In this document: one piece after another, positions 32,916 through 36,570 of the stretch
How positions within the stretch are numbered: position 1 is the first letter of the stretch
Layout of the letters: each line of letters starts with the position of its first letter
NCBI GenBank assembly: GCA_014874365.1
Contig: JACWAH010000016.1
Span: 1 to 51,276 of the forward strand
Direction of reading: 5' to 3'
Source of the DNA: Thermoplasmatales archaeon
Lineage (GTDB): Archaea; Thermoplasmatota; Thermoplasmata; Thermoplasmatales; Thermoplasmataceae
Length of the DNA stretch: 51,276 nucleotides
The notes under the pieces: generated by a model
Seen by the model: the letters and a program-made list of their open reading frames with translations, nothing else
Told to the model about the DNA's origin: nothing
Database searches by the model: none
Position numbers and translations under genes: made by a program

Positions 32916-33419
32916 CTATGCAGAGGCTATCGCCCTGTATTTTCTATATAGACGATCTGATTCGCCTATAATCATCCCTGTTTCAAATGAAAGCAGGCCC
33001 TGTACTATCAAAACAGCGTCAAGGTTTCCCGGGAACAGGAACTCGATTGCCAGCCTGCCCACCAGGGAAGCTCCCCATAAGGCCAGAATGATTACGGAAC
33101 GTTTGTACATCAACTGGTCGTTTGCATAATATAAAGTCGCCCCTTCTCCCCACCTTACACCAGGGAGTATGCCCGCAGCCAGAAGCACCACAAAGTAAAT
33201 GTAATAATTTATTGGAATAGTGATGAGTGATAATATGGTGATTAACGCAAACATGGCTGGTAAGGTAAACACCCTTCTGAGGCTGAATCTTCTTCCAGTG
33301 CTATATCTAAAGAGCCTAATGAGAACGATTACCACTATAAGAATCAAATAAGGGAGGCTGGAGTAAAGAGAAGTACCTGAAGAGGTGGAGGTTGCCAGTG
33401 CAAAAGTGATGGGATTCAA
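32916..33419 (-). CDS. Multi-spanning membrane protein, CcdC-like, paralogue of the 20136 gene
   Basis: 167 residues with five hydrophobic segments. It shares with the protein at 20136-20660 the pattern R..R.FS..R.F..P after the first helix, MYKRSVII in the middle and LSFETGMIIGESDRLYRKYRA at the end, so the two are members of one family. Function unknown. It lies between an oxidase gene and the FtsZ-like gene and is not evidently co-transcribed with either. Confidence 0.6.
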   Translation of the reverse strand: MNPITFALATSTSSGTSLYSSLPYLILIVVIVLIRLFRYSTGRRFSLRRVFTLPAMFALITILSLITIPINYYIYFVVLLAAGILPGVRWGEGATLYYANDQLMYKRSVIILALWGASLVGRLAIEFLFPGNLDAVLIVQGLLSFETGMIIGESDRLYRKYRAIASA

Positions 33420-33452: not shown

Positions 33453-34238
33453 TTAAAAATCAAAGCGCTTTTTGATTAATGCAGCTCTTTCCGAGAACCT
33501 GACGATCACGTGCTCGATGTCCCTGTTAATCTTGGAGTTCATTGCTTCGAAATCAACAAAAGATACATCTGTACTCATTACTTTGTCCTGCACGATGTAC
33601 TTGTCGTTATCGTAAATGCGCACGTTTCCAACTTCTGCATCCAGGCCAATTGCACCTTTAATTGCCTTTTGTCTTCTTTCCTTGTCGAATCTTGAAGGAA
33701 TTATGACCAGATTCATAACTTGAAAGTCCCTGTTCATCAGCATTTTGGCCATTGTTCTGTGGAGTCTTTCTGCAAATTCTCCTCCGAATGCGCTTATCAA
33801 AACGTATGACATAGACTTTGGAACAGAACTCAGTATCTGTTCACAAATATACTCAAGAGGCTGCTCAAGGTGATCTCTCTTGACCACGAACTGTTTAATT
33901 TTGAACATTACACTGAGAGCCATTCCATTGCTGAGATTTGCAGTGTTAGACTGCTCATCAAGCTCAACTTCATAGATCCCAAGTTTCTGTTTTTTCTTCC
34001 CTTTGACATGAGTTCCCTGAGGAAGTGCGCTCAGCCCTCTCCCTCCAACCTCGGGTACAATAGATGTAAAAGTGACCGAATCAAGGTTGCTTGAGATATA
34101 TCCCTTGATGACTTTGGAGGCAGCTCTACCTATTGCAAACACCGACGTATCATCCCTGTCAATGAAGTCGTTTACTATCCTGCTTAAGTTCCTTGTCAAA
34201 ACCCTCTCATCTGGCATGCTTTCAAATTGCTGTTCCAT
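33453..34238 (-). CDS. Divergent FtsZ/tubulin-like protein
   Basis: 261 residues. The sequence tracks FtsZ: an N-terminal SVFAIGRAASKVIKGYI in place of the first glycine loop, then a central VLISAFGGEFAERLHRTMAK in place of the GGGTGTG tubulin signature, followed by a very FtsZ-like VMNLVIIPSRFDKERRQKAI, AIGLDAEVGNVRIYDNDKYI and a helix. The GTP signature is not conserved, so nucleotide binding may be altered or lost. Two nt separate it from the ribbon-helix-helix gene upstream, so both form an operon. FtsZ-like side families have been described in archaea; a role in division or membrane remodelling is inference. Confidence 0.6.
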   Translation of the reverse strand: MEQQFESMPDERVLTRNLSRIVNDFIDRDDTSVFAIGRAASKVIKGYISSNLDSVTFTSIVPEVGGRGLSALPQGTHVKGKKKQKLGIYEVELDEQSNTANLSNGMALSVMFKIKQFVVKRDHLEQPLEYICEQILSSVPKSMSYVLISAFGGEFAERLHRTMAKMLMNRDFQVMNLVIIPSRFDKERRQKAIKGAIGLDAEVGNVRIYDNDKYIVQDKVMSTDVSFVDFEAMNSKINRDIEHVIVRFSERAALIKKRFDF

Positions 34239-34240
34239 TT

Positions 34241-34708
34241 TTATCTATACTCCTTTCTTTCTTCTTCAGTTGCATTCCTTCCCGATATGAACCTGGGCCG
34301 ACGGGCAAAATCGTCCAAAAGTTGCTCCAGATTCTTCTGTTCTTCTATTCTCTTCTTTACCAGCGTGTAAACATATTTTTCCGTATAGCTGTATTTTAGG
34401 ATTTCCTCGATTGCGTCCTCGTAGGCAGTGAATACTCCGCTGCTGATTGCTGCCATTATTGTGTCCTTGAGTCCTGTAGGAATCGATATACTGATGTTTT
34501 CCTTGTTGCCTTTGCTGGTATTTACTGCGGTGTAGTAGTATTTGCTTGTCCTGCCAGTTTTTACTGAGATAAAGTCGAATAGGACTCCTCTGATAAACTC
34601 AGATCTGCTTCCATATTCGGTATGCTCTTCAAGAAACTGATCTATAGTTAAAAGATCCTCTTCCGAGATTCTAATAGTCAGCTTCTCTTCTTTCTCCGTA
34701 TTACCCAC
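34241..34708 (-). CDS. Ribbon-helix-helix transcriptional regulator
   Basis: 155 residues. The N-terminal 45 residues form an RHH fold: a strand KLTIRISEEDL that pairs in the dimer to contact DNA, helix DQFLEEHTEYG, a SRSEFIRGVLFDF turn-helix. A second RHH-like unit (ENISISIPTGLKDTIMAAIS) follows, so the protein may carry two DNA-binding modules. The GTG start lies behind a TATA box at 34736-34743. It precedes the FtsZ-like gene in an operon, as the RHH protein CdrS precedes ftsZ2 in haloarchaea. A direct repeat upstream of its promoter is a candidate autoregulatory site. Confidence 0.75.
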   Translation of the reverse strand: MGNTEKEEKLTIRISEEDLLTIDQFLEEHTEYGSRSEFIRGVLFDFISVKTGRTSKYYYTAVNTSKGNKENISISIPTGLKDTIMAAISSGVFTAYEDAIEEILKYSYTEKYVYTLVKKRIEEQKNLEQLLDDFARRPRFISGRNATEEERKEYR

Positions 34709-34735
34709 CGTGTATGGACAGAATTGCCATTGCCC

Positions 34736-34743
34736 TATATAAA
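34736..34743 (-). promoter_or_regulatory. TATA box of the RHH-FtsZ-like operon
   Basis: TATATAAA on the plus strand (TTTATATA on the coding strand) centred about 31 nt before GTG 34708. Confidence 0.5.
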
Positions 34744-34766
34744 TGTATGTCCAAATGGGTGTACAT

Positions 34767-34800
34767 GCCAGACAAATGTATTAAATTGGCAGACAATTGT
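34767..34800. promoter_or_regulatory. Direct repeat, candidate operator
   Basis: GCCAGACAAATGT (34767-34779) and GGCAGACAATTGT (34788-34800) match at 11 of 13 positions and are 21 bp apart, two helical turns, so they face the same side of the DNA. They lie behind the TATA box of the ribbon-helix-helix operon, in the divergent space shared with aIF2-beta. Ribbon-helix-helix proteins often bind such repeats; binding here is inference. Confidence 0.4.
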
Positions 34801-34911: not shown

Positions 34912-35529
34912 GTGTCGGAATACGATTATGAAGAACTCCTGAAGAAAGCTGAAGGAACATTTTCCAAATCAGATAAACGGGAGATGCGGTTAAAGATACC
35001 GGATCCTGAAGTGCTTTACGAGGGAAAAACCACAATTGTCAGGAATTTTGGCGATATTATTGAAGTCATAAGCAGGGACAGCAACCAGGTTACCAAGTTC
35101 CTTACAAAGGAATTCGGAATAGGCGCGAGTATAAGCGGTAAGCGGTTGATGATCAACAAGAAAGTAACCCAGGATGAGGTCATTTCTAAAATCAACAAAT
35201 ACATTGAAATCTATGTCAAGTGTTATGAATGCGGATCGCCGGACACCGAAATAAAAAGGGAAGGAAGGGTCGACCTTCTCATTTGTAAGGCCTGCGGCAG
35301 CCAGAATCCAATCAAGCTCTCACGAGACATAAAGACCTCTGAAGCTGATATGGAGGAAGGTAAAGAGTACACAGTCACAGTAAGTGAAATTGGGCATTCT
35401 GGAGAAGGAAAGGCCTCATACAAGGGATACACGGTGATAGTTCCGGGTGGAAAGAAAGGAGAAACTGTCAGGGTGTTAATTAAGAAAATGCGCCGTGGAG
35501 TGGCCATAGCAGAAGTCCTAAAAAAGTGA
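34912..35529 (+). CDS. Translation initiation factor aIF2 subunit beta with TRAM domain
   Basis: Beta subunit of archaeal IF2, which brings initiator tRNA to the ribosome. Residues 1-30 form the helix that binds the gamma subunit; the central alpha-beta domain contains GKTTIVRNFGDI and LTKEFGIGASISGKRLMI; the zinc ribbon is CYECGSPD and CKACGS (about residues 104-128). After residue 140 a TRAM RNA-binding domain is fused (VTVSEIGHSGEGKASYKGYT, then IVPGGKKGETVRVLIKK), as in other Thermoplasmatales. Start GTG 34912 is fixed by its TATA box. First gene of an operon with the PIN and riboflavin kinase genes. Confidence 0.93.
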   Translation: MSEYDYEELLKKAEGTFSKSDKREMRLKIPDPEVLYEGKTTIVRNFGDIIEVISRDSNQVTKFLTKEFGIGASISGKRLMINKKVTQDEVISKINKYIEIYVKCYECGSPDTEIKREGRVDLLICKACGSQNPIKLSRDIKTSEADMEEGKEYTVTVSEIGHSGEGKASYKGYTVIVPGGKKGETVRVLIKKMRRGVAIAEVLKK

Positions 35530-35533
35530 GATT

Positions 35534-35896
35534 GTGCAGACAAATTGTGCACTGGCTGACACCAACGTGTTAATCTATTCCGTTCAAAAGAAGGTCAACC
35601 TTAAAATGGAGGTCTCAAGATTGCCAGAACTTGGCAAGGTGTTTCTCCCTTCTTCCGTTTTCAGTGAACTCGAAGGACTTGCAAGAACCAACAGAGATGC
35701 AAATATTGCAATGAAGTTATGCGCAGGATTCGACATGGTTAAAGCTACTAAAAATGGAGATGACGGTGTCATCGAGGCTGCAATTTCAACCGGTTGTTCA
35801 ATAATTACCAATGACAATGATCTTATCAACCGGGCCAAGACCCTTGGGATACGCACATTCAGTATGAGAAGCTCTGGATTGATAGAGGCTATCTGA
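35534..35896 (+). CDS. PIN-domain protein, Fcf1-like
   Basis: 120-residue PIN ribonuclease fold. Acidic metal ligands are visible in ALADTNVLIYSV (Asp9), SSVFSELEGLA (Glu), GDDGVIEAAI (Asp pair) and IITNDNDLINRAK. This arrangement, without an antitoxin partner nearby, resembles the archaeal Fcf1/Utp23-type PIN proteins linked to rRNA processing rather than a VapC toxin. GTG 35534 follows the aIF2-beta stop by 4 nt; its stop shares one base with the riboflavin kinase ATG. Confidence 0.78.
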   Translation: MQTNCALADTNVLIYSVQKKVNLKMEVSRLPELGKVFLPSSVFSELEGLARTNRDANIAMKLCAGFDMVKATKNGDDGVIEAAISTGCSIITNDNDLINRAKTLGIRTFSMRSSGLIEAI

Positions 35897-36570
35897 TGGA
35901 CGAGATCAGCAGCACTGAGTTCAAGGTTCTGAAATGTCTCAGGAAACTTACCACAAATACCGGGAAGGTGAACGTATCCACAGAAGAAATTGCCAGGATG
36001 ACTTCTCTCAGCCAGCAAACTGCATCCAGGGCAATAATTTCCCTATCTAAAGAAGGATTGATATCAAGAGTCCCTGAAAGCAGAAAGCAAACACTTTCTA
36101 TTACTGCAACCGGGTTATCATATCTTAAGCAGCAATTAGCGGAATTATCGCTCATACTTGGAAACATTAATGCAATTTCATTTACTGGAACAGTAGAAAG
36201 TGGCCTGGGAGAAGGAAAATATTACATTTCAAGAAAGAACTATATCGTCCAGTTTCAACAGAAGCTGGGCTTTATTCCCTATTTGGGTACCCTAAACGTA
36301 AGACTCTCAGAAGGCCAGGAAGCTAACGCATTGATTCTTAAGGATTCCAGCGGAATTTATATCGAGGGTTTCAAGACTGAAGACAGGACATTTGGGCCAG
36401 TCAAGGCCTTCAGGGTCGAATTGAATGGTACTGAGTGTGCCCTTATAATGCCGGAAAGAACGGTTCACGTAAATACGGTTGAGCTAATCTCCCCGCATTT
36501 CCTCAGGGAAAAGCTGTCTTTAGAAGATGGGCAGAAGGTCGATATAAAAGTCGATCTGCTTTCAAAGTGA
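35896..36570 (+). CDS. ribK: CTP-dependent riboflavin kinase with N-terminal winged helix
   Basis: Archaeal RibK makes FMN from riboflavin with CTP as phosphate donor. The C-terminal 130 residues carry the cradle-loop barrel signature: FTGTVESGLGEGKYYISRKNY, LGFIPYLGTLNVRL, GPVKAFRVELNGTECALIMPE and the HFLREKLSLEDGQKV end. Residues 1-85 form a MarR-like winged helix (NVSTEEIARMTSLSQQTASR), so the protein may also regulate flavin genes, as proposed for homologues with this fusion. The ATG overlaps the PIN gene stop by one base. It converges with the 36562 gene, overlapping its end by 9 nt. Confidence 0.9.
   Translation: MDEISSTEFKVLKCLRKLTTNTGKVNVSTEEIARMTSLSQQTASRAIISLSKEGLISRVPESRKQTLSITATGLSYLKQQLAELSLILGNINAISFTGTVESGLGEGKYYISRKNYIVQFQQKLGFIPYLGTLNVRLSEGQEANALILKDSSGIYIEGFKTEDRTFGPVKAFRVELNGTECALIMPERTVHVNTVELISPHFLREKLSLEDGQKVDIKVDLLSK

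Follow-up and report, generated by a model that had tools for sequence, protein, structure and literature searches.

The window, that is, the whole stretch of 51,276 nucleotides analysed here, is a contig of a 1.48-Mb genome, and it carries on its minus strand the gene of a ribbon-helix-helix (RHH) regulator followed by that of an FtsZ-like protein. The original prediction had this order and strand right, and the two open reading frames, of 155 and 261 amino acids, respectively, are separated by only 2 nt. The features of the locus are the following:

32916–33419, minus strand: membrane protein gene (167 aa), directly 3' of the FtsZ-like gene; seen there only in the window genus
33453–34238, minus strand: FtsZ-like gene (261 aa), predicted FtsZ N-terminal nucleotide-binding fold up to helix H7, without T7 loop and without C-terminal domain
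33537–33551, minus strand: FEAMN, start of H7, counterpart of F(K/R)VAD
33597–33614, minus strand: YDNDKY, counterpart of the T6 base-binding loop PNDKL
33768–33794, minus strand: SAFGGEFAE (residues 149–157), replaced tubulin signature (T4 loop), at the position of GGGTGTG in FtsZ
34113–34136, minus strand: AIGRAASK (residues 35–42), degenerate first glycine (T1) loop, aligned with GAGGGGSN of FtsZ
34241–34708, minus strand: RHH regulator gene (155 aa) with two predicted RHH halves, strands KLTIRIS (34664–34684) and ENISISIP (34478–34501)
34711–34720, minus strand: TGTCCATACA, match to the TGTNNNTACA site
34736–34767, minus strand: promoter element CATGTACACCCATTTGGACATACATTTATATA, putative RHH-type sites abutting the TATA box; conserved before the RHH gene

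The membrane protein gene is a possible third gene of the operon. Proteins of this kind have 167–176 aa and no Pfam family, and they are also found in the window genus at L088:6820–7344 and L090:6817–7347; in most other genera, the gene after the FtsZ-like one is pyrI, on the opposite strand.

The replacement of the GGGTGTG signature had been recognized correctly, the window protein having GGEFAER where a functional FtsZ has that motif. In the family alignment, most members of the Thermoplasmataceae, to which the window genome belongs, read S(G/A)FGGx(F/Y)xQxxH at the T4 loop, with E instead of Q in the window genus. As most of the family has this signature of its own, SGFGGx(F/Y)xQxxH, in common, the phosphate loop does not seem to be merely eroded. 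The first glycine loop, which had been described as lacking, is there in its degenerate form. The loss of both glycine loops makes GTP hydrolysis by the window protein improbable, and to this extent the idea of a non-GTPase paralogue is well founded. Among the aligned members of the family, D210 of YDNDKY is invariant and N211 nearly so, and N234 of FEAMN, an N in place of D at H7, is also invariant. It had been claimed too that the FtsZ body is kept downstream of the signature, which holds as far as H7 but not beyond, because only 103 residues follow T4, in comparison with 218–236 in full-length FtsZs, and both NxDxxD and FtsZ_C are gone; in short FtsZs (n = 42), the corresponding stretch has 88–157 residues. 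In a motif table of 72 sequences, 42 of them short FtsZs, the T7 loop NxDxxD appears in none of the 42 aligned short proteins, the window protein included. Pfam finds FtsZ_C (PF12327) in both canonical FtsZs of the window genome and neither in the window protein nor in four short relatives, and short members match PF00091 but not FtsZ_C. Compared with canonical archaeal FtsZ1 and FtsZ2, the window protein thus has the N-terminal fold, the DN of the T6 loop, and the H7 helix, whereas it is devoid of GGGTGTG, an intact first loop, the T7 loop, and the C-terminal domain. The FtsZ-like protein is under purifying selection, with a dN/dS of 0.07 from a single unsaturated pair, most other pairs being saturated; for the RHH gene, dN/dS is 0.07–0.11.

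When the window protein was searched alone against Pfam, NCBIfam, and PDB, neither a family match nor an FtsZ match was obtained, and for this reason homology was tested with family profiles. The profile and its alignment were built from homologues across genera of the window family. Using hhalign, this profile matched 18 Thermoplasmata FtsZs with a probability of 83% and an E value of 9e-6, while the RHH alignment, taken as control, gave 0.2%. Against PDB sequences, the profile found 47 matches at E ≤ 1, all of them FtsZ, with a best value of 3e-4. A same-family orthologue exceeds the cut-off of Pfam Tubulin (PF00091; 35.9 bits vs 33) and matches TIGR00065 at 1.2e-8, under the cut-off of that model. 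Moreover, the AlphaFold2 model made from the family alignment (pLDDT 70.4, pTM 0.68, with low confidence at residues 66–111) gave FtsZ at rank 1 in a Foldseek search of PDB, with E 1.1e-7 and TM about 0.53. Profile search and structure prediction point in the same direction, as the original prediction had anticipated, and the window protein can be assigned to the FtsZ/tubulin superfamily with a predicted FtsZ N-terminal fold. FtsZl1, FtsZl2, and Tubulin_2 also are divergent members of the FtsZ superfamily, and FtsZl1 is likewise without canonical filament elements; unlike the window protein, it mostly has added coiled-coil and C-terminal domains (PMC2875224). One short relative from the class matched Tubulin_2 below cut-off only. 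The window protein resembles CetZ in being an archaeal FtsZ/tubulin paralogue, but CetZ is a full-length polymerising GTPase, whereas the window protein is truncated and has no intact loops.

An RHH fold is predicted for the 155-aa regulator from its sequence. It falls below the cut-off of Pfam RHH_8, and its two halves match those of an RHH_1-positive tandem paralogue encoded beside pheT, with E values of 1.3e-9 and 5.2e-7. A second tandem RHH gene (about 96–131 aa) is found directly upstream of pheT (phenylalanyl-tRNA synthetase beta) at L206–L218, in genera of the window family that include the FtsZ-less ones. In haloarchaea, cdrS and ftsZ2 are cotranscribed and RHH control of division genes has been shown (PMC7439475, PMC8406309); an RHH_1 neighbourhood has also been reported for ftsZ2 (PMC9871819). 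The window pair has the same arrangement, with the RHH gene 2–3 nt upstream of the FtsZ gene, and we infer cotranscription here as well. The two systems differ in that FtsZ2 is full-length while the window protein, of 261 aa, has kept only the head, with degenerate loops, and in that two complete FtsZs are encoded elsewhere in the window genome, neither of them next to an RHH gene. CdrS is short (the NCBIfam model has 61 positions), unlike the 155-aa window regulator with its two RHH halves. Identity of the regulator with CdrS itself was considered and rejected, as the protein is longer, has two RHH halves, and scores 15.8 bits against NF058555, for which the cut-off is 100.

The likeness to CdrS-FtsZ2, first noted from gene order, turns out to be more than a resemblance, since the pair is kept across the class and, in sister classes, the proteins nearest to it are FtsZs of full length that follow a short RHH. 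The relatives compared include MAGs of Thermoplasmata and Thermoplasmatales. In the window family, the RHH gene lies directly upstream on the same strand for all 40 distinct FtsZ-like proteins with enough flank. The same is true for 47 of 51 other short FtsZs, a set that is biased because part of it was found via RHH, and for 24 of 115 full-length FtsZs; the homologue loci of the window family and also the loci L279–L283 and L285 were found via the FtsZ-like protein instead. No RHH gene adjoins either of the two canonical ftsZ genes in the window genome. In a class-wide sample of 20 genomes from different lineages, RHH plus a short FtsZ is present in nearly all, mostly with intact GGGTGTG, and in one genome a full-length FtsZ stands behind RHH.

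The region before the RHH gene gives some hints on regulation. The core of CATGTACACCCATTTGGACATACATTTATATA, formed by its 3' 22 bases (34736–34757), has one exact match in the window genome, at the RHH promoter. The TGTNNNTACA site is found upstream of 28 of the 37 RHH genes of the window family, a count taken over related genomes that are not independent, as against 1.9 expected in shuffles and a maximum of 8. It is present in none of 12 canonical ftsZ promoters of the family. A different palindrome, TGTCNGACA, stands upstream of 4 of 12 canonical ftsZ genes in the window family (L176, L179, L180, L136) and about 31 nt before the RHH start in seven of the eight operons of RHH and full-length FtsZ (L185, L186, L188, L120, L121, L127, L254), and it is a candidate for a CdrS-like operator. 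In other families, the same region has TGAC/GTCA inverted repeats in 9 of 18 cases (0.5 expected). In view of the conservation of TGTNNNTACA and of the promoter element, it is likely that the RHH protein autoregulates its operon via this putative site. Genes for eIF2-beta with a TRAM domain, a PIN protein, and a CTP-dependent riboflavin kinase (34912–36570, plus strand) diverge from the RHH promoter, and many members of the family have, at the corresponding position, a divergent gene of eIF2-beta size (about 203–209 aa); the putative RHH site, being next to this operon, may affect it as well.

Within the window's order, the T4 motif forms a graded series: it is GGGTGTG or GGGMGTG in family f5, mostly GGGTGSG in f3, GGGMGTG or GGGMGMG in f4, and lost in the window family. 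In some genomes of the order, an additional locus combines RHH with an FtsZ of full length. Outside the class but within the phylum, the best relatives are full-length proteins, mostly of 370–418 aa, encoded directly behind a short RHH. One tree splits the Thermoplasmata FtsZs into short and full-length ones with UFBoot 98. In a second tree, built without named FtsZ1/FtsZ2 references, the short members group with full-length FtsZs that stand behind RHH in sister classes (UFBoot 94), and those of the window family fall together with the short members of their order (UFBoot 99), the deeper nodes of the short clade being weak (81 and 55). The best PDB matches did not discriminate FtsZ1 from FtsZ2, and the FtsZ2 origin of the short FtsZs is based on gene context and on tree support that is moderate. 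In the window genome, the FtsZ-like protein occurs beside two complete FtsZs, and sequence comparison together with modelling identifies its gene as a third paralogue of FtsZ, which belongs to the lineage linked to RHH, with the cdrS-ftsZ2 arrangement. As read from the same alignments and models, the T7 loop and the C-terminal domain were lost early in Thermoplasmata, and in Thermoplasmataceae the phosphate-binding loops were lost too. Since short FtsZs stand behind a tandem RHH in nearly every sampled family of the class and full-length ones behind a short RHH in other classes of the phylum, the window protein is the furthest-degenerated form in a lineage of truncated FtsZ2 proteins. The simplest reading is that an operon of the cdrS-ftsZ2 type was duplicated, that one copy was truncated in the class ancestor, and that the GTP pocket was lost afterwards in Thermoplasmataceae. 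We think that the window gene very probably encodes a truncated, non-polymerising, FtsZ2-derived protein in an RHH operon. In our searches of open-licence papers, no account of a truncated FtsZ linked to RHH came up for Thermoplasmata.

Genomes without complete FtsZ are relevant for understanding what the pair does. In three genera of the window family, 10 genomes have no FtsZ at all, in agreement with reports that Picrophilus, Acidiplasma, and Ferroplasma are FtsZ-less (PMC10936438); this loss is probably a single event. The RHH gene is kept in nine of these 10 genomes, with E values of about 1e-33 or better; it stands mostly among the same neighbours, and an open reading frame of about 160 aa follows it. 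An exact co-loss of the FtsZ-like gene with FtsZ is ruled out, as the RHH search found the locus persisting with this shorter partner. When compared with FtsZ, the partner gave an hhalign probability of 3% (E 0.014), and its AlphaFold2 model had no FtsZ match; judging by its position, it may descend from the FtsZ-like gene. Family f10 retains a short FtsZ, though a full-length canonical one was not found there. Its near-complete genomes G104, G123, G137, G143, G179, G187, G191, G198, and G204 have no homologue scoring like a complete canonical FtsZ. Each of these genomes has one or two short or divergent FtsZ homologues, several of them directly behind an RHH gene (loci L279–L283, L285, L297–L301).

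In FtsZ protofilaments, the T7/C-terminal face of one subunit sits on the nucleotide face of the next. A head-only protein, not having the first of these faces, cannot polymerise in the usual way; at most, it could sit at one end of a filament or act by binding another protein. The explanation that we consider best, with the scales evenly balanced for and against it, is that of a non-polymerising regulatory partner of the RHH protein and/or FtsZ. The RHH protein would autoregulate its operon, and the truncated FtsZ-like protein, no longer forming filaments, would bind the RHH protein, an FtsZ subunit at its exposed T7/C-terminal face, or both; transcription would in this way answer to the state of the division machinery. 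This binding might be controlled by GTP in relatives with intact loops and be independent of nucleotide in the window lineage. The constant pairing with RHH favours a role together with it. That the partner is shorter in genomes without FtsZ hints at a further contact, with FtsZ itself, but a single evolutionary event probably lies behind this. We count against the regulatory partner the 0 of 12 canonical ftsZ promoters with TGTNNNTACA and the partner of about 160 aa without a demonstrable FtsZ fold.

Another explanation, which in our opinion is unlikely, would be an FtsZ antagonist or end cap, in which the head-only protein would bind the last FtsZ subunit at its C-terminal/T7 face and block further growth, with RHH setting only the dose. 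The top contact face belongs to the half that was retained, the window genome has two complete FtsZs, both with FtsZ_C, and the partner is down to about 160 aa in the FtsZ-less genera, all of which would fit. Nevertheless, the contact face is the nucleotide face, whose loops are lost in the window family, f10 keeps a short FtsZ though no full-length canonical one was found, and the partner persists where FtsZ was lost, probably in one event.

RHH adaptors combined with filament proteins are a known design for partition. The window pair has in common with TubZR and ParMR a DNA-binding protein and a cytoskeletal-fold partner in one operon, and putative RHH-type sites are present at its promoter. 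A DNA-partition module with RHH as centromere adaptor and the FtsZ-like protein as motor is nonetheless very improbable, because the pair stands at a single chromosomal locus in a stable housekeeping neighbourhood, has no motor features, and has a few sites at most per promoter, as opposed to a long array. Even less credit can be given to the original proposal of a polymerising tubulin paralogue for cell shape. The FtsZ fold and the precedent of CetZ proteins, which have a cell-shape role in haloarchaea, speak in its favour; however, the T7 loop and the C-terminal domain are gone from every aligned short member, both glycine loops are degenerate, and the constant, always co-encoded partner is a DNA-binding protein. 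The absence of a cell wall, which had been invoked in that proposal, explains nothing specific, as other families of the class keep the version with intact motifs. For a toxin-antitoxin pair, with RHH as antitoxin and the FtsZ-like protein as toxin, hardly any room is left, since the gene order and tight coupling resemble those of RHH toxin-antitoxin operons but the pair is near-universal, vertically inherited with the same neighbours within the window family, and under purifying selection. Least credible of all is a decaying, functionless pseudogene, which would account for the lost loops and the still shorter form in FtsZ-less genera, but not for an open reading frame kept in 40 distinct members, a dN/dS of about 0.07 for the measured pair, and the conserved signature FGGx(F/Y)xQxxH.

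Returning to the regulatory partner of RHH and/or FtsZ, a wider version of it can be put forward tentatively for the whole class, although we would sooner doubt it than rely on it. An FtsZ2 copy stripped of its filament half would have become the sensor subunit of an RHH transcription switch; in at least one family, f10, no FtsZ homologues were found other than this one and further short or divergent copies. In Thermoplasmataceae, the protein would be a pseudo-GTPase reporting the division state to transcription. FtsZ is normally a polymerising GTPase, and here a conserved branch without the filament half has been kept for the age of the class, almost always beside a DNA-binding regulator. We think that the pair is a testable candidate for coupling division and transcription in wall-less archaea. 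Besides, FtsZ counts in Thermoplasmata genomes may include proteins unable to form a Z-ring. Along the series, which goes from intact GTP motifs through degenerate loops to a partner of about 160 aa with RHH still beside it, relatives can be compared to test what the GTP pocket does.

Two further observations concern other short FtsZs. Family f5 holds another kind of 259–265 aa, with GLGGIVGT or GLGGVLGT and without RHH link (L170:3773–4570, L172:3885–4667, L174:3553–4332). In the class-wide short FtsZs L249, L256, L257, L263, and L268, the C-terminus consists of a linker that varies and a tail that is conserved, for example PVxFDxxGFIGxR; this tail recalls the C-terminal peptide by which FtsZ binds membrane anchors.
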